IMG/VR virus record: IMGVR_UViG_3300027851_000072
Location: 1 to 37,492 of that record
Length of the DNA stretch: 37,492 bases
DNA from: a virus
Strand: one strand, 5' to 3'
The notes beneath the pieces are model-generated. The model did not search any database. It saw only the letters and a list, made by a program, of their open reading frames with translations, and was not told the origin of the DNA. Made by a program: the position numbers and the translations under genes. Of the stretch, positions 6,823 through 31,310 are shown piece by piece. Each line of letters opens with the position of its first letter. The first letter of the stretch is position 1.

Positions 6823-9800
6823 TTACCTCTTGAATTGTTGGGCTTCGAGGAAGGGGCGGCGAATTATGCCTGAGCGCCCCCCGCCCGCGTTGTTCGGTGC
6901 CTCGATCGCTCTAATCGAATAAGTGGTCTCCCCTCCGCCTGTGTTGAAATCCACCATGGAGAACGATTTCGCATCCTGGATCCCGTCTGGGGCAGCGACT
7001 GCGAGATGGGACCAAGTGTTGACCAAGGTGGATCCGCGATAGAGCCTGATCTCGGTATAGGTCGTGCTGCCGCTGCTTCTCGGGTTCTCGAGAGTGCAGG
7101 CAAAGCCGATCCTTGTTCGAAACCCAGCGGTCCGGGGCACAATCAGGGACACGATAGTTGTCTCTGTTGTTTTGCTGTCGATAAGCCATTCCCCATTGGG
7201 CAGATATTCATATTCGACCGTGGTGACCGCGTTGCCCGCGATTTTCAGGGTATCGATATCCGCTTCCTTGATCAGCGCCTTCTTGATGTAGGTGCTGCCC
7301 CCATCGACAATGAACGGCACATCCCGGGCGCTGCCGTTGATGATGGCGAACCGATCTGCCCGTACCAGCACCCGGCTATCCCCGGAGCTGGTAGCCTCCA
7401 GAAACAGCGCCGCCGTCTGGGTGTCCGCACCGTCCGACGCGGTGGCGGACAAGCCGATGCGGGATGTGGCACCGGCTGGCGTGGCCTCAACGCTGATCCT
7501 GAACCGGCCGCCCGCCGAGAACTTGCCAACAGTCGTATTCAGCGCCGTCAGCGCATCGGCCTGCCCTGAAATTTCCCCCTCTGCTGTCGAGACCCGCGTG
7601 GTCAGTGCGTTCAGGGCCGAGGCCGAAGCCTTACCGGATAGATCACTCTGCAGATCGGTGATCGCAGTCGACTGGGCTGTCGTGATTGCAATCAGGCTCG
7701 GGATATTGCGATCCTGCACCGAAACCCATGTAGAGCCGCCCCATCGATAGCATTTGCTCCCCTGGGAAGTGTCGAACCAGATATCGCCCACACCTGTTGC
7801 GGTGGGCGCGGTTGATGCGCGAAACACCTTGTTCTTGCCGTTGGCTGTCGTCTCGACATTGGTGACCTTGGTATCCAGCGTGCTCAGGGCCGAGGCGCTC
7901 GCCTTGCCCGCAACGTCGCTTTGCAGGCTTGTGATCGCCGATGCATGCGAGGTGACAGTCTCTTGCAGGGCGGGAATGGCCTTGTCCTGCACGGATACCC
8001 AGCCGCTGCCACTCCAGCGCCAGCACTTGTCGTTGTCATCGGTATCAAACCAAAGGTCACCGGCATCCCCCGCCACCAGCCCGCTCGGGGCGGTGGCCTG
8101 CCGGAATACCCGGTTCTTCGACCCTGCAACCGTTTCGACTGTAGTAACCCGGCTGGTCAGGACGCCCACTGCACTGGAGCTGGCCTTGCCTGCCACGTCA
8201 TTTTCAAGGTTGGTGATCGCAATTGATTGGCTCGATATCGCCGTCTCGGCATCGGTGACCCGCGTCGTCAGACTGCTGACCGCCGAGGCACTGGCCTTGC
8301 CTGCCACATCACTCTGCAGGCTGGTGATCGCAGTTGACTGCGACGCAATCGCGTTTTCTGCACTGGTGACCCGGGTGGTCAAGCTGCTCAGGGCTGAGGC
8401 GCTGGCCTTGCCTGCAACATCTGACTGCAAGGCCGTTATGGCCGATGCCTGCGACGTGATGCTGGCCTCGGCGACAGTCACCCGCGTCGTCAGGGCGTTC
8501 AGAGCGCTGGAGGTTGCAAGCCCCGGCACGGCAGACTCGAGCGCTGTGACTTTTTCCGAGAGCACAACGACTGCATCGGCCTGCACGCCCACATCCGTCC
8601 GCAGCACCTCATCTGCGGTGGCCAAGGCCTCCCTGACAGCTCCATCAGCCAGGAAAGCCGCAAACTGCGCATCAATCCCCTCTGCGGCAAGCGGATCAAT
8701 GCTGTTGCGCAAAGCCACGACAGCGGCGCTCTGGCTGGTCAGCCCGCCCGAAAGTTCACTGACCTCGGTGGTCAGCTCCGAGACGGCAGCCGCGCTGGCC
8801 TTGTCGCCAAGATCGGATTGCAGGCCGGTGATTGCCGTCGCCTGAGCGGTCAGAAGTCCCTCGGCGGTGATCACGCGGCCATCCAGCGCCTGCACCGCAT
8901 TGGCTGTTGCGGTAGTGTCGCCTTGGATATCGGTGAGGCTGGCTTCCAATTCCGTGATCGCGGTGGCCTGGGCTTCATCCGCCGATATGCGGGCGGTCCG
9001 CTCGGCAACCAGTTCGGCGCGGCTGGCTCCGGGCGACGGGCGGCCAATCGCGACCCAGTCGATCTCGATATAGTTGCTCGCATCCGACACAGCGGCGAGA
9101 TCAAGCCTTATCTGATCCAGCGTGCCGGACCATTCCGGGGTCACCGTGACATCGGCAATGCCATCGACCCAAACTGGTGCGGTGATCGCAATGCTGCGGC
9201 CCGCCGCCCAGCCCTGCCCCGCCGCCTGCCACCACAACGCGCCCGCCCAGCTGGGCGATCCGACACGCCGCAGCCGCGCCCGAACCTGCGAATAGACCTG
9301 CGTATCTACAGCCAGACCGACGGGAGACGCGACCCATGCGCCCGATCCTGTCGGAGGGCGCAGATATCCGCCTGTTGCGGTCGGGTTGCTCGGGCTTCCG
9401 GCCCAGCCCTCTATGGCCGCGTCGAAATACCAGATATCGGACTGGTCGAATTGGGTGTTGGTACCGACAGATACGGCGGCGATCTGCTGGGCCAGAGCGT
9501 TTTCGCCATCGACCCGGGCGGTATCAACCGCGATGATCCGTGCTCCCAGATCATCGCTTTCGGCCTCCAGGACGATAACGCGCTCTGCGATGGCCCCGGT
9601 GGCACTGGCGGCGACCGTGATCCGCTCATCAAACGAGGCCGCATAGCCCTCGACCACGACGCTTATCTGCCTGCGCAGTTCCTCGCGGGCGGTGTAGGAC
9701 TGATAGTCAAGGTCAGCCACATAATCCCGGATGGCCTGCACCGACCGGGCAAGATCGCGGTAATGCTGGGCAGTCGTGATGGCAAGATCACCGCGCGCAG

Positions 9801-11874
9801 CGGCTTCGGTCGCCAGTTGGGATGCCTGCTGCGCAAGATCGGCAGCCTGTTGCGCCTGCTCCGCCGTCAGCGCGGCGATCTCCGCCTCGGCCTCTGCAAT
9901 AGCATCAGCGGCCAGATCAAGCTCCGAGTTGATCCAGTCCTCCAGCGTGGAAAGCTGGTCAAGAATTTCGGCCTCCAGCTCTGACCAGTCCAGATCGGCA
10001 GGGCCAAGCTTGACGCCCGGAGTGGTGGCGCTGATCCAGTTTGACCACTCTGTCGGGCGGGGAGCAATGATCCGGGCGCGGGCCTCGTAGACCGTGGCGG
10101 GCAGCACCTCATGGATATGCCGCTGGCCCGCCTCAATATCCTGTGTGCTGCCGCGCAGGCTTACCGCCTGCCCCGCCACGCGGACTTGCCAGCGGAGACC
10201 CTCCGCATCCTCCATCGCATCTGCCGTCCAGCCGACAAGCAATGCCGGGCGGCGCGCGGTGCCAGCACCATCGAGGATCGACACGCCAGACACGGACCAC
10301 CCCGGCACGGCCTGCACCGTTGGCAGTTGCGGTGTCAGCGTCGGGGGATCAGGCAATGTCACCGAGGGCGGATCATAATCGGACGGATCGCGCTCACGCA
10401 ACAACACCTGCACGAGCCCGCCAACCGGATCCCGAACGACCTCGACCACCTCGAACAGCTTGGCCGAATAGTAGTTGCGCGCCGAGGTCCAGCTGATCAA
10501 ATCAAGCGGCATCAGCGCGGCGGCATCAGGCGGCAAGGTAAGGGTATGCCTGCGCCAACGCCGCGCATCCTTGGCGTAAGCTGCCATCAGCCGACGCACC
10601 TGCGCGGGATAGGGCGCCGCAGGCAACGTCAGATCCGCCACCAGCCTGCGCCCGCCGTCTTCTGCCTCCCAGGCAGCATCATAACGCGGCGTGGCGTCCT
10701 TGCCCTCCCACCCGCTCCGTGGATCCGGGTAGTTTGCGGCAACGCCGTTATAGGTGGCCTCGGGGGCCGGGAACGGGTCGAAATCCTCGGGCGACGTGAC
10801 GATGATGTCATCATCAGTCACGAAATAGACCGGCAGACCCGGCGCGCCGACCCGGATCGACCAGACCCCACCCATTTCGGAGAGTTGGCCCGAGCACCCC
10901 TTCAGCAGTTCCTCAATGACCGAAAATGGCTCATCCTCGACAAGCACCTCAAGCCCGGCACGGTAGCGCGGATTGCCGCCGACGCTGACATCCGCGACCG
11001 TCATGGCGGAGGCCCATGTCGCCAGAGGCAAATCCTCAGCCGCGCACTCGCCGCCCCAGACATCACCGCCCGGCAGGGCTATGCCCCGCAGGATGTTATA
11101 GACCTGCACCACAGGGTTGACGCTAGGCTCATAGGTCGCGGGCTGGCCAAAGCGATGCGATCCACTGCCGCCTGCCGTGCCGTCCTTGCGCGGATCATAG
11201 AGCGGGATGCCGCCCAGGACAAAGCGCACCTTGGGAAATCCCGAATACACCTCCCGGTCGTACCGAAACGTCATCACGGCATAGCAGATCCCCGCACCGA
11301 TCCGTTCTGCCCCCCAAGGCCGCACATAAGGCGCAGGGTATTTGGCCACCAGCATCGCGTCTGCGGCAGTCTGCCTGCCATCGTGATACCGGATCCATGC
11401 CTTGCCCTCAAACCGCCCAAGCAGCGGCAGGCCATAATCCGCATCCGGCTCGGTCCCGATATCAACGGGCTCGCCATCAAGGATCACACCATCCAGCGTT
11501 TGTCCGGGGATGCCGCCGACCTCGATCACATAGTTGAGATAGGCATTCGGGGTCTTGCCGGATTTGCCATGAGACATCGGCGGCGCGACAAGTTGGCCCT
11601 CGGTCGCATACCACCCGAGGATAAAGCCCTCACTGTTGACGCCGCCACTCTGCGTGGCCGTGGTGCGGATGCCAGGCTGCTTTGGCTTGGGGGCCAGAGC
11701 CTGAGACAGCGCCGACAGCGCCACCGAGCTGAGCAGCCGACCGACCGCGCCGGTGGTGATCCAGGACGCAGCCGCAGCGCCCGCAGCCCATGCCCCGCCG
11801 ATGCCAGCACCGGCCACAGCACCCGTCGCCAGAAAGCTGGAAAACCCCGAGATAAATGCGCCTACTGCGGGCAT
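6823..11874 (-). CDS. Tail tip / host-specificity protein, gpJ-like, 1683 aa
   Basis: Largest gene of the tail module. Residues 1-60 are Gly/Ala rich and hydrophobic; residues about 60-510 carry the tail-tip hub typical of lambda gpJ and GTA tip proteins (GFILGWYATEGQLVAPPMSHGKSG, VPIYD-type segments). Residues 515-618 look like a fibronectin-III-like domain (VPGWSVSGVSILDG). Residues 638-760 are a long coiled coil. Residues about 990-1440 hold seven copies of a 37-residue coiled-coil repeat (VAGKASASALSSLTTRVTSAE). Between them are two copies of a Trp-rich module of about 55 residues (GDLWFDTDDNDKCWRWSGSGW and GDIWFDTSQGSKCYRWGGSTW). A beta-rich C-terminus probably contacts the receptor. It lies at the end of the tail-tip genes, as J does in lambda. 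Confidence 0.88.
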   Translation of the reverse strand: MPAVGAFISGFSSFLATGAVAGAGIGGAWAAGAAAASWITTGAVGRLLSSVALSALSQALAPKPKQPGIRTTATQSGGVNSEGFILGWYATEGQLVAPPMSHGKSGKTPNAYLNYVIEVGGIPGQTLDGVILDGEPVDIGTEPDADYGLPLLGRFEGKAWIRYHDGRQTAADAMLVAKYPAPYVRPWGAERIGAGICYAVMTFRYDREVYSGFPKVRFVLGGIPLYDPRKDGTAGGSGSHRFGQPATYEPSVNPVVQVYNILRGIALPGGDVWGGECAAEDLPLATWASAMTVADVSVGGNPRYRAGLEVLVEDEPFSVIEELLKGCSGQLSEMGGVWSIRVGAPGLPVYFVTDDDIIVTSPEDFDPFPAPEATYNGVAANYPDPRSGWEGKDATPRYDAAWEAEDGGRRLVADLTLPAAPYPAQVRRLMAAYAKDARRWRRHTLTLPPDAAALMPLDLISWTSARNYYSAKLFEVVEVVRDPVGGLVQVLLRERDPSDYDPPSVTLPDPPTLTPQLPTVQAVPGWSVSGVSILDGAGTARRPALLVGWTADAMEDAEGLRWQVRVAGQAVSLRGSTQDIEAGQRHIHEVLPATVYEARARIIAPRPTEWSNWISATTPGVKLGPADLDWSELEAEILDQLSTLEDWINSELDLAADAIAEAEAEIAALTAEQAQQAADLAQQASQLATEAAARGDLAITTAQHYRDLARSVQAIRDYVADLDYQSYTAREELRRQISVVVEGYAASFDERITVAASATGAIAERVIVLEAESDDLGARIIAVDTARVDGENALAQQIAAVSVGTNTQFDQSDIWYFDAAIEGWAGSPSNPTATGGYLRPPTGSGAWVASPVGLAVDTQVYSQVRARLRRVGSPSWAGALWWQAAGQGWAAGRSIAITAPVWVDGIADVTVTPEWSGTLDQIRLDLAAVSDASNYIEIDWVAIGRPSPGASRAELVAERTARISADEAQATAITELEASLTDIQGDTTATANAVQALDGRVITAEGLLTAQATAITGLQSDLGDKASAAAVSELTTEVSELSGGLTSQSAAVVALRNSIDPLAAEGIDAQFAAFLADGAVREALATADEVLRTDVGVQADAVVVLSEKVTALESAVPGLATSSALNALTTRVTVAEASITSQASAITALQSDVAGKASASALSSLTTRVTSAENAIASQSTAITSLQSDVAGKASASAVSSLTTRVTDAETAISSQSIAITNLENDVAGKASSSAVGVLTSRVTTVETVAGSKNRVFRQATAPSGLVAGDAGDLWFDTDDNDKCWRWSGSGWVSVQDKAIPALQETVTSHASAITSLQSDVAGKASASALSTLDTKVTNVETTANGKNKVFRASTAPTATGVGDIWFDTSQGSKCYRWGGSTWVSVQDRNIPSLIAITTAQSTAITDLQSDLSGKASASALNALTTRVSTAEGEISGQADALTALNTTVGKFSAGGRFRISVEATPAGATSRIGLSATASDGADTQTAALFLEATSSGDSRVLVRADRFAIINGSARDVPFIVDGGSTYIKKALIKEADIDTLKIAGNAVTTVEYEYLPNGEWLIDSKTTETTIVSLIVPRTAGFRTRIGFACTLENPRSSGSTTYTEIRLYRGSTLVNTWSHLAVAAPDGIQDAKSFSMVDFNTGGGETTYSIRAIEAPNNAGGGRSGIIRRPFLEAQQFKR
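7560..8900 (-). repeat. Imperfect 111 bp repeats inside the gpJ-like gene
   Basis: Seven imperfect copies of a 111 bp (37 codon) unit occur around 7620, 7890, 8170, 8282, 8393, 8500 and 8790. Three or four of them, between about 8160 and 8520, are directly tandem. Two related Trp-rich modules (about 7690-7830 and 7970-8110) interrupt the array. The repeats encode coiled-coil stalk segments and can change in number by recombination, altering stalk length. Confidence 0.75.
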
Positions 11875-22336: not shown

Positions 22337-23940
22337 CAGATCACCAAAATTCCGCGTGTTTCATATACCGACGGGCCTTCGCTCGCATCCTGCCACGTCC
22401 CGGCCACGCTCATCGCCATTGCCAGCGCAACCATGCCGTCGATCCGCCCACGGCTCTTGCCCTTGACCAGCTTGCGGTTGCCTGCCGGGTCGGTCTGCAC
22501 CACAGCGTTTGCGGCGCAGGTGTCCAGCACCGGATGCCCGCCATGCGCCAGCGTTTTCGTCAGGATCGCGCTTTCCAAATCGCGCAGGGCCGGGCTCATG
22601 CTCTGGAACCCCTGCCCCATCGGTTCGAATATCGCGGCGTCACCGTCCAGTTGCGCGTCGGTGAATCCGGCGCGGGACAGCCACGGCTTGAGGTGCCGCC
22701 AGTTCCACCGGTCGAAGGCGATCTTCCGCACGTCGTAGCGCTGCGCCACGGTCCAGAGGTGGGCCGCGACAAACTCGTAATCCACAACCGGACCATCAGG
22801 CGCCTGCAGAAACCCCTGCTTGTGCCACACATCGTAGGGCACGCGGTCGGCCTTGGCCTTCTCTCGCAGGCCATTGCCGGGCAGCCAGAACGTCGGGTGG
22901 ACCTGCCACACGCTCTCGACTGGCGACACCAGCACCAGAGCCGTGAGGTCGTTGACCTCCGACAGGTCAAGGCCGCCGAACACCACCGCCCCATCCTCCA
23001 GCGGCAAGGGCTTGCTGGCGCATTCCTGCCAGACCTTGCGACCGATGAATGGTGCCGTCGCCTCGATGCGCTGGTTCAGATAGAGCCAGCGGAAACTGTT
23101 CTCGTCGCTCGGCAGGCGCTCGGCCCGTGCCGCCAGATCCTCGATGTCGGCGATGCTGCGAAACTCGCCCATCGCTGGGTTGGCTGCCAACCAGGCATCA
23201 CGGTCCATCAGGTCACAATCCTGCGGCGCGGCATAGACATGGCTCACCGTGCGCGGATCGCCGCTTGCCTCCGCATCATCCAGCCAGCGCGAAAACATGT
23301 CGTTATCGGTCGCGGCCTGCGTTGAAATGGCGATCAGCAGCGGGTCGTCATGCGCGCCCTGTGATGTGGTGATGGCCTCCACGAAATCGTCATGCGGGCC
23401 TTTGATCTGGCCCACCTCATCAAGGATCGCCAGCACTGGGGAAAGCCCGTGCGCCGTGCCAGCCTCCGCAGAGATGGCCCGGTATTCGACGTTCATCTGA
23501 ACGCCGGTAATCATTTTCTGCGACGGCGTGATGTGCGTGCAGGATTTCGCCCGCAGCTCCGGCGAAAGGCCGATCATTTTCTGCGCCAACTTGAACACCA
23601 GCGCCGCCTGTTCGCGCGACCGCGCCCCGCTGATGATCTGGCTGTTCTGCCGCGCCTCCGGCCCGACGATATGCGCCAGCAGGAGGCAGGCGATGAGACA
23701 ACTTTTCCCATTTTTGCGCCCGACGCTTAAGTAGGCTCGTGATGTGCCTGCCGGGTTGTCGTAGATTTCCCTGATAAAACGTTCCTGGAATGGCATAAGC
23801 TTAAGCGGTTCGCCAACATGCTTGCCCTCTGGCGTCTTGATGTATTTGGCAATGAAGGCCAAAACCCTTTCGCCTCTCGTCATGCTACCCCGCCAAATTC
23901 CACCCCATGTAGGATGAGGCTTTCCCAGCCCTGATTGCAT
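22336..23940 (-). CDS. Terminase large subunit, HK97-like
   Basis: Packaging motor and nuclease of the Terminase_1 family. Residues (numbered from ATG 23940): Walker A at 74-80 (GRKNGKS), Walker B with LAILDE at about 170-175, coupling motif ISTQA at about 205-209. The nuclease part has GGLDLSEVNDLTALVLV, FDRWNWRHLKPWL and a final acidic RIDGMVALAMA. The N-terminus GLGKPHPTWGGIWRGSMTRGERV fits the family, so I start at 23940; the ATG at 23883 (MTRGERV) is an alternative. The first 56 bases (23885-23940) overlap the end of the upstream HNH gene in another frame, which is unusual and may reflect insertion of that gene. Confidence 0.92.
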   Translation of the reverse strand: MQSGLGKPHPTWGGIWRGSMTRGERVLAFIAKYIKTPEGKHVGEPLKLMPFQERFIREIYDNPAGTSRAYLSVGRKNGKSCLIACLLLAHIVGPEARQNSQIISGARSREQAALVFKLAQKMIGLSPELRAKSCTHITPSQKMITGVQMNVEYRAISAEAGTAHGLSPVLAILDEVGQIKGPHDDFVEAITTSQGAHDDPLLIAISTQAATDNDMFSRWLDDAEASGDPRTVSHVYAAPQDCDLMDRDAWLAANPAMGEFRSIADIEDLAARAERLPSDENSFRWLYLNQRIEATAPFIGRKVWQECASKPLPLEDGAVVFGGLDLSEVNDLTALVLVSPVESVWQVHPTFWLPGNGLREKAKADRVPYDVWHKQGFLQAPDGPVVDYEFVAAHLWTVAQRYDVRKIAFDRWNWRHLKPWLSRAGFTDAQLDGDAAIFEPMGQGFQSMSPALRDLESAILTKTLAHGGHPVLDTCAANAVVQTDPAGNRKLVKGKSRGRIDGMVALAMAMSVAGTWQDASEGPSVYETRGILVI

Positions 23941-24781
23941 AGACGGCAGCGCTAACCCTTTGAGGTGTTGACCCCAAGGCGTCAGCAATCTGCCGTCTAT
24001 CCCCAGTCAATACCGATCCGTCGCGTGTCAGCGTTATCGCCTTGGCCCTTGGTCCCGATGTTGTTCCATCGCGCGGGCAATTGAACCGTCGATCATCAAC
24101 CCCGGACAGACGCCAACCGCATCGCGTCACGCTGCGCTGGTGAACTACACGCCACGCCGACGCATCACTTAACCCTGCGTGATTGCAAAATTCAGACTGC
24201 GTTCCCTCGAACGTGCGGCCGTCGCGGTTCACGAACTTGTTCACCTGCCCCTTTTCGCTCCGCTTATGATCGGCGATGCGCGAGGCCAGCAACCAGCCCT
24301 TAACGCTGGGGCGCACGCCGCTAGCTACCATCGTCCAAGTCGGTCGAGACATGCCGTGCTTCGCGTGCATGTCGAAGATCGTGGCGCTTTCCCTGTCGCC
24401 CGTCCGATAGTTCACCCAGTCAAATATTTCATGGTTGAACAGAGGGTTTTTGTCGGCAGCCCACCGTTCGGAAAGTGCTGGAATTGATAGACGTTTTGCT
24501 AGCGCATAGCGTCCCCGGCTTTGCAGCCTTCTCCCCCAATGCCGCTCAGTGATCTGCATCATGCAGAACAAGGCAGCCGACATCTTGCCGCCATATATCT
24601 TCGCCAAAAGCAGGTGAGCGAAGAAGTGATCCTCTGGCGTCAACCTGACCAAGTTATCCCGGCCATCGCCGCCGCCAAGCGAGCGCGGGATGATGTGGTG
24701 CCTCTCGGTATATCCGGTCAGCGAGTGTTCGATAGACTTGCGGTGCGCGATGAACGCGCTGTATATCCGTTGGTAGTCCAA
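23885..24781 (-). CDS. Homing-type HNH endonuclease, 298 aa
   Basis: Free-standing HNH endonuclease. Residues about 24-60 hold the HNH core (TERHHIIPRSLGGGDGRDNLVRLTPEDHFFAH: His pair, Asn and final His). The C-terminal 120 residues have two or three DNA-binding repeats, FVNRDGRTFEGTQSEFCNHAG and LTRDGSVLTGDRRQIADALG, of the type found in group I intron and free-standing homing endonucleases. The start is TTG 24781 with GAGGT upstream. GC is lower than in flanking genes. It sits between the small and large terminase genes and its last 18 codons overlap the terminase N-terminal frame, the pattern of a mobile gene placed at a conserved site. An intron cannot be excluded without RNA data. Confidence 0.85.
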   Translation of the reverse strand: MDYQRIYSAFIAHRKSIEHSLTGYTERHHIIPRSLGGGDGRDNLVRLTPEDHFFAHLLLAKIYGGKMSAALFCMMQITERHWGRRLQSRGRYALAKRLSIPALSERWAADKNPLFNHEIFDWVNYRTGDRESATIFDMHAKHGMSRPTWTMVASGVRPSVKGWLLASRIADHKRSEKGQVNKFVNRDGRTFEGTQSEFCNHAGLSDASAWRVVHQRSVTRCGWRLSGVDDRRFNCPRDGTTSGPRAKAITLTRDGSVLTGDRRQIADALGSTPQRVSAAVYAIRAGKASSYMGWNLAG

Positions 24782-25983: not shown

Positions 25984-26577
25984 TCAGCGACGCTCTGTCA
26001 ACAGCTTGAGCGCAGACACCGCGACAGTGCCACATGCAGTGGGCGCCCCATCCCGCCAGAGCGACGCCTCCCCCATGAACCCATCCAGCGCGCCGCGCAG
26101 CGCCCATCGATATTGCGGCGCAGGGAATGCGGCCATCATGCCGGACCATACGTCCCATGCACGGCGGGCGGCCTCATCTCGCTCGTCGCTGGTGCGCAGA
26201 TCCACGCGCAGGCTCTGGTCTGTCTCCATGCGGTCATGGATCATCGGCGACGCGGCGCCTTTTGGGTCACCCGTGCAGCCGATGATGCGCATCCGGTAAT
26301 TCCGGTGGGCGGCGCTGATCGCGGCCCATGTCTCGCACAGGTCATCACGCTCCTGCCCGGCCGACAGCGCGAGGATGCAGCGGCCCATGTCGCTCTCGTG
26401 CAGCACCGATGCGGCGTCGATCCGGCACCGACGGGCGCGGGCGGCCATGATCGGCGGCGGCCCGTCCTGCACATCGGCGCGACGCCCTTGCCCCATGCGC
26501 TGGCCCACGGCTTTCCCGCCCGGCAGGCTGATCTTCGCGGCCTTGCGGCGGCGCTTGCGTTCGGCCTTGCTGGTCAT
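25984..26577 (-). CDS. Hypothetical phage protein, 197 aa
   Basis: Starts at ATG 26577 (MTSKAERKRRRKAAKISLPGGKAVGQRMGQGRR), after a GAGGACGAGG stretch; the longer upstream frame is not protein-like and is rejected. The N-terminus is very basic, suggesting RNA or DNA binding. The rest is soluble and helical (ALSAGQERDDLCETWAAISAAHRNYRMRIIGCTGDPKGAAS ... ERDEAARRAWDVWSGMMAAF). It lies between the replication genes and the tRNA/terminase region. No known family is recognised; it may be a late regulator by position, but that is guesswork. Confidence 0.7.
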   Translation of the reverse strand: MTSKAERKRRRKAAKISLPGGKAVGQRMGQGRRADVQDGPPPIMAARARRCRIDAASVLHESDMGRCILALSAGQERDDLCETWAAISAAHRNYRMRIIGCTGDPKGAASPMIHDRMETDQSLRVDLRTSDERDEAARRAWDVWSGMMAAFPAPQYRWALRGALDGFMGEASLWRDGAPTACGTVAVSALKLLTERR

Positions 26578-26614
26578 GCCTCGTCCTCGCGTTGATATTC
26601 CAACCTTTGCCGGG

Positions 26615-27253
26615 TCATTCGGCGGCCACGCCCCAGTCCGGGACGTCGCGCTTGTCGGGGATCGAAGGTCCGCCGTTCGGATCTTGCCGCTGGTCATTCC
26701 GGGCCTTCCAGACAGCCTTTGCTGCCTCGTGATCGGCCTTGCGCTCAGCCTCCCATGCAAGCGCCGGCTGATCCCCGTAGATCGCCTTCCGAGCCAGAAA
26801 CGCGCCACTCCGGTAGCGGTCCATGGTGGCGCGATCGACCAGCCCACGGGCGGCAATCTCGCAGGCACCGGAACCCCAGAGCCAGCACTCGCCGACCGCC
26901 TCCCCGGCCTGCATCCGGCGCGCTGCGATGCCTGCGGGGCTCATGTCCCGCTCTTCGCCAGACAGGTCTTTGCGCGCCCATTGCGCATCCTTTCGGAGGT
27001 TTGAACATACCGCCCCAAGCTCGCCCTTTGTCGGCCAAGCCCTCGTCTTCATTTGGTATTCCACCTGGTCAAGCGCCTTGGCCGCGAAGTCTGCGTAATC
27101 GCTTCGGGGGGCGAATTTCAGGATCACGCCAAGCAGGGCTGCAGCCTCATCCTGCTGCGCCCGTTCGTTGTCGCGGATCGACTGCGGCGGGCTGTATCGC
27201 TCAAGCCAGCGGCTGAAAAGCCCGGAGATTTCCGCGGTGCGAAAGTCGGTCAT
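26615..27253 (-). CDS. Replication-region protein, 212 aa
   Basis: Helical protein of unknown function, overlapping the initiator gene by four bases (ATGA). The start MTDFRTAEISGLFSRWLERYSPPQSIRDNERAQQDEAAALLGVILKF and YADFAAKALDQVEYQMKTRAWPTKGELGAVCSNLRKDA resemble proteins placed after initiators in phages, which often load the host helicase. However, there is no Walker A motif, so an AAA+ loader is ruled out. A helicase-loader or primosome role is possible from position only. Confidence 0.72.
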   Translation of the reverse strand: MTDFRTAEISGLFSRWLERYSPPQSIRDNERAQQDEAAALLGVILKFAPRSDYADFAAKALDQVEYQMKTRAWPTKGELGAVCSNLRKDAQWARKDLSGEERDMSPAGIAARRMQAGEAVGECWLWGSGACEIAARGLVDRATMDRYRSGAFLARKAIYGDQPALAWEAERKADHEAAKAVWKARNDQRQDPNGGPSIPDKRDVPDWGVAAE

Positions 27254-28161
27254 TGGCGAAGGCTCCCATCGGGGTTGAAATCATCAGGGTTCAGGTTCCA
27301 GAGCTTGCGCGGCGGCGAGGCACGGGCCGAAGACGATGGCTGCAGCTTGGGTGGCGGAAAGTCTCTGGATGCCGCGAATTCATCCAGCGCTGGCAGGAAG
27401 AACCGCAGGGATGAGGGCGGCCCAGCCTTTGGGCCGGAATTCCTGACCGCCATCACCTCTGCGATGATCTGCAGGACCTGCGCCTCATCAATGCCCCTGA
27501 CTGCCATTCTCGCTGATAGCTCTGCCATTTCGTCGGATCGGCCAATCCTGCCACCTCCCCGACCAGTCATCCCGGAAACTGGATCAACACCGCAGGCCAG
27601 CAGAATGCGTTCACGGAAAGTCATGTCCGGCTGCAAATTGGCAGCACACGCGCCAGCATCAGCAGCAATCTCTTTCTTAGGCTCTGGTATAGGCTCAGGC
27701 TCAGGCTCAGGCTCTGGGTTTCGATAGGCTTTCGATAGGCTATCGTTTTGCGGCCCAAGATCGGCAATATTCACATACTTCGCGCCGCGCAAATCCTCGA
27801 TAAGCCGTTGTTTTTCCTCGCAATCAGGCAATGACATAGCGACCTTGACGGCGCCAGCGGCGTGCTTCGGGTTGGTGAAGGGGTCATGCCGGATGAAATC
27901 GACGATCCTGACCAGCATTTCGTCCCTATCGAAACCCACTAGAAAGGCTTTCGATAGGCTATCCATAGCCTTTCTATAGCGCTCAGAATCCCACCCCAAA
28001 TCCGCCAGCGCATATCCTTCGGGCAGCGGAAAACACCCGATGAGGTTGCTGTGCGGGCACGAGTGCAGGTAGAGGTAGAGGTATCTTGCGTCGTCAGAAT
28101 CGAGCCTGGAAAACTTCCGGCTGCGCCAGATCACGGTGTAGATTTTGGCGTAATCGCGCAT
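27250..28161 (-). CDS. Phage replication initiator (lambda O-like), 303 aa
   Basis: The N-terminal 120 residues (MRDYAKIYTVIWRSRKFSRLDSDDARYLYLYLHSCPHSNLIGCFPLPEGYALADLGW ... FIRHDPFTNPKHAAGAVKVAMSLP) form the winged-helix domain of phage replisome organisers. A flexible linker EPEPEPEPIPEPKKE and a C-terminal helical part follow, the lambda O layout. The gene carries 11-bp iterons that encode the repeated peptide DSLSKA, so it probably contains its own origin. It starts at ATG 28161 with a one-base overlap with the previous gene and overlaps the next gene by four bases. Confidence 0.82.
   Translation of the reverse strand: MRDYAKIYTVIWRSRKFSRLDSDDARYLYLYLHSCPHSNLIGCFPLPEGYALADLGWDSERYRKAMDSLSKAFLVGFDRDEMLVRIVDFIRHDPFTNPKHAAGAVKVAMSLPDCEEKQRLIEDLRGAKYVNIADLGPQNDSLSKAYRNPEPEPEPEPIPEPKKEIAADAGACAANLQPDMTFRERILLACGVDPVSGMTGRGGGRIGRSDEMAELSARMAVRGIDEAQVLQIIAEVMAVRNSGPKAGPPSSLRFFLPALDEFAASRDFPPPKLQPSSSARASPPRKLWNLNPDDFNPDGSLRQ
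27719..27740 (+). repeat. Two tandem 11 bp iterons
   Basis: TTTCGATAGGC occurs twice with no gap (27719-27729, 27730-27740), followed by TATCG. Part of the candidate origin and of the 19-base direct repeat 27726-27744, which recurs at 27945-27963. Confidence 0.8.
27925..27934 (-). repeat. Inverted iteron copy
   Basis: CCTATCGAAA is the reverse complement of TTTCGATAGG (10 of 10 bases), 15 bases before the next direct copy. Confidence 0.7.
27949..27959 (+). repeat. Fourth iteron copy
   Basis: TTTCGATAGGC, identical to the first two, within the second copy of the 19-base direct repeat (27945-27963). A weaker TTTCTATAG follows at 27971. Confidence 0.75.
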
Positions 28162-28466
28162 CAGTGCATCCCCGCCTTGTTCGACGGGCTGACCCGCAAT
28201 TCCGTGGGTCGCTCAGACTGGCAGTCCAGCGCGTTGGCGTCGTATAGCGCCATGATCCTCGAGACCATCTTGGAGCACGCCGCAGATTGCTTATCGGTGA
28301 GCCCGCCACTCTTGATGGCCCACATCAGGCAGGACGCCGCAAATTGGCGCTGCGGATCTTCCTTGTTCATGACGAATACCGTCCATCTGAGCAGGTCATC
28401 CCACAGGCTGGAGGTCGGCGGCGACGGCACGTCATGCGGCATTGGATATTGGTTTTTATCAGACAT
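28161..28466 (-). CDS. Hypothetical early protein, 101 aa
   Basis: Begins at ATG 28466 (MSDKNQYPMPHDVPSPPTSSLWDDLLRW), with AAGGTG upstream, overlapping the DnaA-like gene by eight bases; a longer frame inside that gene is rejected. After a Pro-rich start the protein is helical (LLRWTVFVMNKEDPQRQFAASCLMWAIKSGGLTDKQSAACSKMVSRIM). Family not recognised. Its place between a DnaA-domain-IV-like protein and the initiator suggests a role in early replication control. Confidence 0.68.
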   Translation of the reverse strand: MSDKNQYPMPHDVPSPPTSSLWDDLLRWTVFVMNKEDPQRQFAASCLMWAIKSGGLTDKQSAACSKMVSRIMALYDANALDCQSERPTELRVSPSNKAGMH

Positions 28467-28728
28467 TTTCGCACCTTGTGATTTCGCTTCGCGCCCTCGC
28501 CCAATGCCGCGCCACGCCCTGCCCGACGCTGCTGTGATCCCAGCCACCTACCTTGGCGATGGCAGTGAAGGTGAACCCGGCCTGCCGCGCCACAGCCCAG
28601 GCCTCGGACCGTGCTGCGACCACATGCGCGTGACGATCACGCACGAGGATGTCAGCCTCGGACATGCCGTGCTTGGCCGCTGTGGCGGCGATGATGGATC
28701 GGATGCGGGCGCGGGGTGATTGTGCCAT
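28459..28728 (-). CDS. DnaA domain IV-like DNA-binding protein, 89 aa
   Basis: Stand-alone copy of the DnaA C-terminal helix-turn-helix. Residues about 33-75 (HVVAARSEAWAVARQAGFTFTAIAKVGGWDHSSVGQGVARHWA) follow the domain IV pattern: arginine before the first helix, then GFTFTAIAKVGG-WDHSSV, where DnaA has GGRDHSTV. No AAA+ domain is present. Such a protein would bind DnaA-box-like DNA, perhaps to recruit or to block host DnaA at host or phage origins. Directly upstream of the 101 aa gene and initiator. The family call is firm from the motif; the role is inferred. Confidence 0.78.
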   Translation of the reverse strand: MAQSPRARIRSIIAATAAKHGMSEADILVRDRHAHVVAARSEAWAVARQAGFTFTAIAKVGGWDHSSVGQGVARHWARARSEITRCENV

Positions 28729-28736
28729 GGCTTGCC

Positions 28737-31310
28737 TCAGGCCGCGTCGCCATCCAGAAAATCGAACAGGCTTGGCGTCGAAACATCCGCCTCGGCTGCG
28801 GCGCAGTATTTCGCCCCGTCAAGGAAATACCCCTTGTTCAATTCGCAGCCCATTCCGAAGCGGCCGAGTTTTACCGCGCGGAACGGCACAGTCATCAAGC
28901 CGCCGAACGGATCAAAAACCACCTCGCCAGGCTCCGTGAATTGCTGGATGGCGCGATCCACAATGTCGAACTGCAGCGGGCAGAGGTGCATTTCCTGCCC
29001 CTTCCGCGCCTGCTCTGCATTGATCGTCCGCATCCGCGCAACATCCGTCCAGACGTCTGGATGAATAGAGTGAGGCGGCAAGAGCATGAATGTCGGCGGC
29101 AGCCTGCCATTCATTTCGAGGTGCTCACCGATTTTAACGTGGTGCTCGAATTCATATACAGCGTTCAGGTTGAAATCCTTCCAGACCTTGTAGACCTGAT
29201 CTGCCTCAAGCCCATCCAGATCGAGAGGCCGCAGGCAGCGGTCTCCGCTTGATCTGGTGTATCCGTGGGCGTCGATCTGCCAGCGGGCACGGGAATATCC
29301 GGCCTCGTTATCCCAGATCTTCGACTCGCCATCCCAATGCTTCTTGGACTTAGCCACCGGCCGATCAGCATAACCATTGCTGCGATCTGTTGGCGGCTTG
29401 CGGAACAGCAGCAGGTATTCCGGCACGCCGCAGCCCATGCGCGTGCCGTCTTTGCATTGCTCCGTCCAGCCCAGACGGTAGGTCTGATTGTTTTCCCGCA
29501 CCACATCCGTGGTGATCGTCTTCATCCCGAGATAGGCAAATCCGTGCCGCTTGAACTCCGCAATGCAGTCGCAATGCAGCGTCGAAAGCGTCTGGAAGCC
29601 GAACCCATTGATCCCGCCGGGAATGATCCGATCCTTTACATGGATCGCTGCAATCCGCCCAGGCTCAAGAACCCGCAGCAGGTTCGGAATAAGAAACCCC
29701 ATCTGCTCCCAAAAATGCGGGTCATCGTCGGTATGGCCGAAGTCCGCATAATTCGGGCTGTACTCATATTGTGTGCTGAACGGAATTGAGGTGACGATCA
29801 GCTGCACGGAGTTTTCATCCATGCGCGCCGTTTCCTTCACGCAGTCCTCGTGCATGATCCGGTAATTTCGGCCCGTGATTTCCACCCGCTCAACGCCCAT
29901 GGCGCGAACCAGGTGCTGCTGCATTGCAATCTCGGAAAGGCCATATTCTCGGATGATCTGAACCATTTTCTCTACCATCTGATTGTGCGCAGCCCACTTG
30001 CGCTCCAAGGCCTTGCGAACCTCGCGCTCGGCTTCGGTGTAGATCAGGTCGACACGCACCAGATCCGCCAGCTGACCAAAGCGCCGGAGCCTATGAACCG
30101 CCTGAATGAAGTCGTTGAACTTGAAGCCGATCCCGAGGAACACGGCCCAGCTGCAATGCGCCTGAAGGTTGGTGCCAGACCCCAACATCACCGGCTTGGC
30201 GCCAAGCTCGGAAATATGCCCGTCGGCAAAACCGGCAATCACATCCTCGCGGGCATCAAGATCCTGCGCGCCGTAGACCGTGGCAACGCCCGGAACCGCG
30301 CGTTCGATGGCCGCTCGCTCGCTTTCCAGATCGTGCCAGATGATCCTGTGCGCAGCCGGATCTTCTGCCCTGATCTGCATGAGCCGGTCGATCCGCGCAG
30401 GCAGGCTGTCGCGCTTTTCGCGCGCCGCGCCCGACAGGTCCACCGTGGCATCCCTGAACATGCGCGCCTGGCCGCTCTTCTCGTGGCCCGCGCCCGAAAG
30501 GTGATCGACCGGCAACTCATGCCACCGCACATCCAGTGGCGGCAGGTCATAGCCATCATCCGAGAAGGCAGGGTCCAGATCGGAGGGGCGCGTGACAAAC
30601 AGCGCCCACGACGCGACCCAAAGCCAGAACTCCTGCTCCTTGTGCTGCATCAGGGTCAGGTTGTCGGCCTTCTCGCTGTTACGCTTGAAGAACCGGGTCT
30701 TTGCCTGCCCGATATCCATCACATCGAGGAACCCGGCATAGCTCAGAAGCTCGATGTAATCGTTCGGGCTGGGGGTGGCGGTGGCGACGAAACGATACGG
30801 CACGTTCATGAACGTGCGAATGAATGTGCGGAAGGTCTTGGTGCCGCCCATGCCGCGCAGAACGGCCGCTTCATCCAGCGTCACGGCCTGGAAATGATCC
30901 GGCTTCAGCTTTCCATCGCGGACCGTCTCGTAATTCGTCAGATAGACCGCAGGCCCATCGACCTCTGCATCCGACTTGATGAATCGCAGATCAATCGCGA
31001 ACTCTCCGTGAAACCGCCGCGCTGCCTCTGCAATGAACTCGCGCCTGACGCCAAGGGGTGCCACGATCAGCACCGGGGCGTTCAGGCGCCGCCAGAGCAC
31101 CCGCATCGTTTCCAGCTGCGTGGCCGTCTTGTGCAGGCCGAAGCTGGCAAACCATGCCCGCCGACCACCGGACAGGCCCCAAGCAACCATGCGCCGCGTG
31201 TGCGGCTTAAGCGCCGGGTTCAGATCCGCCTCTGGAACATCAATGCCGCCAAACCGGGGAGCAATTGCGGCCTTGGATGCCAGGAAGTCATCATAGGAAT
31301 GAAAGCTCAA
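28737..31310 (-). CDS. Helicase-DNA methyltransferase fusion, 857 aa
   Basis: Two-domain enzyme. Residues about 35-420 form an SF2 helicase: altered Walker A FGLHKT (57-62, His for the usual Gly), DEAA (146-149), TATPSP (177-182) and motif VI QAVHRLRRFGQ (403-413). Residues about 480-857 form an amino-DNA methyltransferase of the beta order: motif IV TSIPF (507-511, usual form SPPY/DPPY), a long insert, then motif I FDPFGGLMTVPFRA (799-812). Both active-site motifs depart from consensus, so activity is uncertain but the substitutions look conserved-like rather than random. The start is TTG 31310 with GGAGG before it, immediately after the DUF1064 stop. It may protect phage DNA from host restriction or act during replication; target site unknown. 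Confidence 0.85.
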   Translation of the reverse strand: MSFHSYDDFLASKAAIAPRFGGIDVPEADLNPALKPHTRRMVAWGLSGGRRAWFASFGLHKTATQLETMRVLWRRLNAPVLIVAPLGVRREFIAEAARRFHGEFAIDLRFIKSDAEVDGPAVYLTNYETVRDGKLKPDHFQAVTLDEAAVLRGMGGTKTFRTFIRTFMNVPYRFVATATPSPNDYIELLSYAGFLDVMDIGQAKTRFFKRNSEKADNLTLMQHKEQEFWLWVASWALFVTRPSDLDPAFSDDGYDLPPLDVRWHELPVDHLSGAGHEKSGQARMFRDATVDLSGAAREKRDSLPARIDRLMQIRAEDPAAHRIIWHDLESERAAIERAVPGVATVYGAQDLDAREDVIAGFADGHISELGAKPVMLGSGTNLQAHCSWAVFLGIGFKFNDFIQAVHRLRRFGQLADLVRVDLIYTEAEREVRKALERKWAAHNQMVEKMVQIIREYGLSEIAMQQHLVRAMGVERVEITGRNYRIMHEDCVKETARMDENSVQLIVTSIPFSTQYEYSPNYADFGHTDDDPHFWEQMGFLIPNLLRVLEPGRIAAIHVKDRIIPGGINGFGFQTLSTLHCDCIAEFKRHGFAYLGMKTITTDVVRENNQTYRLGWTEQCKDGTRMGCGVPEYLLLFRKPPTDRSNGYADRPVAKSKKHWDGESKIWDNEAGYSRARWQIDAHGYTRSSGDRCLRPLDLDGLEADQVYKVWKDFNLNAVYEFEHHVKIGEHLEMNGRLPPTFMLLPPHSIHPDVWTDVARMRTINAEQARKGQEMHLCPLQFDIVDRAIQQFTEPGEVVFDPFGGLMTVPFRAVKLGRFGMGCELNKGYFLDGAKYCAAAEADVSTPSLFDFLDGDAA

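Follow-up and report, generated by a model that had tools for sequence, protein, structure and literature searches.

The 37,492-bp stretch of viral DNA analysed here (hereafter the window) carries tandem 11-bp repeats at two places inside a single gene, which encodes a protein of 303 aa. In our view these repeats are probably (about 0.83) the iterons of an intragenic replication origin, bound by the winged-helix initiator that the same gene encodes. The two-cluster arrangement is common to many distantly related phages. The features on which this reading draws, together with the neighbouring genes, are the following:

26615-27253, minus strand: gene of 212 aa, directly downstream of the initiator gene
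27250-28161, minus strand: replication initiator gene, 303 aa, ATG at 28161; winged helix, EP-rich linker and C-terminal part
27691-27714, minus strand: EP-linker hexamers, four exact copies of AGGCTC encoding EP dipeptides
27717-27745, minus strand: putative iteron cluster 2, directly ahead of the EP-linker codons; two 11-mers in tandem, CTATCGAAAGC and CTATCGAAACC on the coding strand
27880-28140, minus strand: predicted winged-helix DNA-binding domain, codons 8-94 (AlphaFold2 model)
27924-27936, plus strand: putative inverted iteron copy beside cluster 1 (coding strand TTTCGATAGGG, one mismatch at 27924-27934)
27945-27979, minus strand: putative iteron cluster 1, inside the predicted recognition-helix codons; about three 11-mers in tandem, CTATAGAAAGG, CTATGGATAGC and CTATCGAAAGC on the coding strand
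27949-27987, minus strand: predicted recognition helix, codons 59-71 (model secondary structure)
28459-28728, minus strand: gene of 89 aa, close upstream of the initiator gene; its product has a DnaA C-terminal (HTH) domain at E 5.3e-7

The 303-aa protein matched PHROG 25711 (E 2e-30) and PHROG 1701, annotated as 'DnaD-like helicase loader' (E 5.5e-20), and it also matched the 'replication initiation protein' PHROGs 8064 and 3171. Its N-terminal domain fits the profile of the PHROG 1701/25711 phage initiators, and by these matches the protein is of the initiator/helicase-loader type. An AlphaFold2 model built from 36 sequences had a mean pLDDT above 90 over residues 11-130 and contained helices at residues 48-55 and 59-71, followed by a two-stranded wing at 75-86 (strands 75-78 and 83-86). 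From its place in the winged-helix fold, helix 59-71 is predicted to be the recognition helix, and cluster 1 spans the codons of this helix. The best structural matches of the model were the N-terminal domains of the RepA_N plasmid initiators 4pt7, 4pql and 5kbj, at Z scores of 8.2-8.3, a range that common folds also reach; Foldseek E-values were weak (0.23-0.38). The first-pass annotation, made from the letters of the window, had put the repeats at the winged-helix end and before the EP linker. The second placement stands, but the first site belongs to the predicted recognition helix.

The repeats themselves are real, and a scan of the window returned them at the coordinates given in that annotation. 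Exact copies of TTTCGATAGGC, whose coding-strand form is CTATCGAAAGC, occur at 27719-27729, 27730-27740 and 27949-27959, and the direct repeat of 19 bases (27726-27744 and 27945-27963) is exact. All exact and one-mismatch copies in the window lie inside the 303-aa gene, except for a single one-mismatch match at 7741, and two-mismatch copies are scattered over the window. Tandem Repeats Finder, run on the whole window, reported period 11 at 27719-27745 and 27945-27979. The latter array (3.2 copies, of which two are degenerate; score 10 at offset 11) raises cluster 1 to about three copies, above the number first listed, and lies about 220 bp from cluster 2. The inverted copy beside cluster 1 is weaker evidence because a conserved FDR-type peptide could explain it; two-mismatch equivalents are present in the relatives L031 and L075. 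No other paired array comparable as an origin candidate was found in the whole window. The AGGCTC hexamers are not an iteron but a codon-level repeat of the EP dipeptide linker. A 111-bp tandem repeat of about two copies, 77% alike, was also observed at 8180-8456, within the gene of a 1683-aa protein (6823-11874). A second viral contig is 100% identical to the window over 4,832 bp, with no difference in the initiator gene.

When synonymous codons were permuted within the gene, with the protein left unchanged, the 11-bp tandem score of the gene (13) was reached in none of 200 shuffles (null mean 4.7, maximum 9). Likewise, the 19-nt match between the clusters was equalled in 0 of 100 synonymous shuffles. 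Since 11 is not divisible by three, tandem copies fall in successive reading frames; the codon phases are 2, 1 and 0 in cluster 1 and 0 and 2 in cluster 2. As a result, across the window and its relatives, identical or almost identical 11-mers yield the peptides YRKA, AIES or LSKA.

The repeats recur in homologous genes of other phages. Among 33 non-redundant homologues collected by protein similarity, 18 carried an 11-bp tandem, counted where at most 1 of 200 shuffles reached it, compared with 2 of 200 flanking control ORFs drawn from the same loci (Fisher P 5e-16). Eleven genes outside this set, ten found by their repeat pattern (L018-L032) together with L036, were excluded from the count because their retrieval might favour repeats. 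A match between the two clusters was found in direct orientation in 14 and in inverted orientation in 17 of the 33 homologues (at most 1 of 100 shuffles). In 45 genes, the pattern-found ones included, 27 repeat runs lay at codons 56-75, 28 at codons 110-165 and 1 elsewhere. When offsets of 5-33 were compared, again with pattern-found genes in the set, 11 and its multiple 22 stood out, as did multiples of 6, and the remaining offsets gave little or no signal; the 6-bp periodicity in relatives comes from dipeptide linkers. The protein-based scan yielded 42 loci. Moreover, a search through 2.9 million viral contigs, made with a DNA query alone for CTATCGATACC twice in tandem, returned 11 loci, at least seven of them with the match inside a winged-helix initiator gene; in L018, L019, L020, L021, L023, L026 and L027 it falls within the initiator gene, mostly right before a low-complexity linker. 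Loss of the repeats from close relatives had been named in advance as a result that would speak against an origin. The close relatives L031, L032, L036 and L029 were found to keep them, and another, L075, retains a single copy or a remnant at each of the two sites.

Among other homologues, that of a Klebsiella phage, 39% identical in its 135 N-terminal residues, carries a different unit, GAAAGGGTTTC, at both of the same places, and both clusters are present in an Acinetobacter phage initiator. The genes of the relatives PhiR5_2 and Fraca likewise show this arrangement. In several phages of Gram-positive hosts, namely the Geobacillus phage E2, Listeria phage LP-030-3, Psychrobacillus phage PVJ1 and Oenococcus phage Krappator27, 11-bp tandems occur in the linker region. 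In Krappator27 (L163:786-1685), a different 11-mer, ACGAATCGTGG, is present three times in register after an ND-rich linker. The tandem pattern was absent from the Proteus plasmid, Mycobacterium, Actinobacillus, Thermobifida and SI2 relatives, and from Tenacibaculum JQ, Stenotrophomonas BUCT702, Bacillus Silence and Streptococcus Javan271. SfV and DC1, which have only the C-terminal part in common with the Klebsiella homologue, were without repeats.

Four classes of unit were distinguished by their core, namely TATCGA[AT]A, AAGGGGC, AAAGGGTT and AACGGTT. Both clusters of one gene belong to one class and are often inverted relative to each other; the match between cluster 1 and cluster 2 averaged 14.7 within a class and 7.6 between classes, a difference to which kinship may contribute. 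In many genes of the AAGGGGC class, the two clusters are reverse complements of each other, and the encoded peptides, EGASKGL and QAPSKPL, are unrelated. Furthermore, in 73 distinct Klebsiella-type genes (69-99% protein identity to the query), the lowest synonymous diversity among nine-codon windows coincided with cluster 1, at 0.15 of expectation. Synonymous diversity was reduced at cluster 2 as well (0.55-0.69), as it was in the linker region. Codons 160-168 of the Klebsiella-type gene (EDSSGHGFA; L002:3001-3888) showed synonymous variation at 0.19 of expectation, near that of cluster 1.

An alternative explanation is that the peptide DSLSKA, encoded at codons 67-72 and 140-145, is used twice as a protein motif, and that the likeness of the DNA merely follows. 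The first-pass annotation had drawn the opposite conclusion from the same peptide, taking it as a sign of selection on the DNA. The peptide does occur at both places, but the step from it to DNA-level selection is weak, and what carries that conclusion is the tests of frame, orientation and homologues, not the shared peptide alone. Synonymous shuffles did not reproduce the between-cluster match, copies stand in all three codon phases, and inverted clusters encode unrelated peptides; these results refute DSLSKA as a sufficient cause and leave the peptide explanation scarcely credible. Homologues retain the repeats yet vary their frame, orientation and sequence, and to judge from the genes compared the repeats are conserved at the DNA level rather than at the peptide level.

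The repeats might instead be operators through which the initiator or another regulator switches the initiator gene off, with the origin elsewhere; cluster 1 in particular could act in autoregulation or pair with cluster 2 in a loop ('handcuffing'). The presence of the same unit in both clusters, their distance of about 220 bp and their frequent mutual inversion would suit such looping, and the binding specificity of operators could equal that of an origin. Nevertheless, both clusters lie deep in the gene and not at a promoter, no sigma-70-like site and, more generally, no promoter or terminator was detected in 26500-29000, and the published counterparts (Tuc2009, SPP1, pSK41 and lambda) are origins, so that we regard operators as unlikely. 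Binding by another protein, such as host DnaA or the 89-aa DnaA_C-like protein (28459-28728), is suggested by the position of the latter gene close upstream of the initiator and by the resemblance of some units to a DnaA box (CTATCCATA against TTATCCACA, 7 of 9 bases by eye). Against this, the classes AAGGGGCTTCG and GAAAGGGTTTC at homologous positions are unlike DnaA boxes, and in most relatives the annotated neighbours are not DnaA_C genes, which makes this alternative very unlikely. The iteron-type origin within the initiator gene, as originally proposed, is well supported as a reading by the shuffles, the repeats of the homologues and the PHROG type of the initiator.

Several known systems resemble this arrangement. 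The initiators of the lactococcal phages Tuc2009 and TP901-1 are described in PMC8965321 as binding direct-repeat regions in their own genes that serve as the origin. In the Tuc2009 rep gene, four 11-mers (CAACCAAGTGT CAACCATTCCG CAACCAAATGA CAACCAAATGT) stand in exact 11-bp register; the 11-bp offset was reached in 18 of 500 shuffles, moderately beyond the null, and the 22-bp offset in 0 of 500. These 11-mers may be its functional origin repeats. Tuc2009 Rep is like the window protein in its annotation ('DnaD-like helicase loader'), in having repeats in the initiator gene and in their form of tandem 11-mers. It differs in that its iterons are only at the linker, with an unrelated unit (CAACCAAATGA) and an additional 15-bp array; no cluster was seen in the recognition-helix codons of Tuc2009 rep. 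TP901-1 was rejected as an 11-bp example, as the direct repeats of its rep gene are spaced at 15 bp (TTTTCCAGATGTGGC; L168:2748-3566), which indicates that not every origin of this kind has an 11-bp spacing.

The RepA_N initiator of pSK41 consists of a winged-helix N-terminal domain, an origin-encoded linker and a C-terminal domain, and its Rep boxes lie centrally in rep (PMC5703833). This family, which provided the best structural match of the model, may share its winged-helix N-terminal fold with the window protein, and its initiators bind Rep boxes located in their own gene. By contrast, these are plasmids, their Rep boxes are reported only centrally, and the 303-aa protein had no Pfam RepA_N match at E 0.1. 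The iterons of lambda occupy the middle part of O, its initiator gene (PMC7466680). Unlike the window, lambda has four iterons (six in Stx phages) beside an AT-rich tract, and no cluster in the DNA-binding domain is reported. The SPP1 protein gp38 binds direct repeats within gene 38, at oriL (PMC6316719); compared by its published description, SPP1 is like the window in having direct repeats in the initiator gene and unlike it in having a second origin, oriR, about 13 kb away.

For the working of such an origin, we infer binding by the 303-aa protein, opening of the DNA at the clusters and the manner of helicase loading. The winged helix of the initiator would bind the 11-bp units, one per helical turn, at two clusters, one within the stretch that encodes its own recognition helix and the other where the flexible linker starts. 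Several initiator copies lined up on the same face of the DNA would assemble into a nucleoprotein complex; this would bend the DNA and open it, either close to the two clusters or in the interval between them, and the helicase would be brought in through the linker and C-terminal part of the initiator and a partner encoded next door. The AT content of 27700-27969 was 47%, compared with 38% for the window on average, which puts the interval at the 96th percentile, and no strong or clear AT-rich unwinding tract was found in this interval. Cumulative GC skew, which had been suggested as a check, was monotonic on the window and uninformative, lending no support to an origin.

Next to the homologous initiators, the following gene encodes DnaC or a DnaB-like helicase. 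In the window this place is taken by the gene of the 212-aa protein, which had no Pfam, PHROG or phage match, its sole match being in the identical contig; by its position, it is possibly a helicase loader. In L075, a protein that looks similar by eye to the 89-aa DnaA_C one is encoded downstream of the initiator. Two further genes of the window were noted. One (28737-31310, minus strand) encodes an 857-aa protein in which a SNF2-like helicase part is fused to an N6/N4 DNA methyltransferase. The other (23885-24781, minus strand) lies between the terminase genes and overlaps the large one, and its 298-aa product has an HNH-like N-terminus by eye and is perhaps a homing endonuclease.

Origins within initiator genes are already known, and the cluster in the recognition helix looks like a new variant of them. 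In the literature covered, no recognition-helix cluster, inversion between clusters or cross-phage matching of unit classes was found; as it took in few subscription papers, this negative result carries little weight. At even odds, in our estimate, is the further proposal of a widespread type of phage origin whose target sites include the very DNA that encodes the recognition helix reading them, with the linker cluster matching this site in either orientation. If so, a change in the site would also be a change in its reader, and origin specificity and target would evolve as one sequence.

In conclusion, inspecting winged-helix initiator genes for self-similarity at 11 bp, in codons 56-75 and 110-165, may offer a route, from sequence alone, to candidate origins in many uncharacterised phages. 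Moreover, the arrangement would be a natural system with reader and target in the same bases, in which a comparison of the four unit classes makes the change of origin specificity testable.
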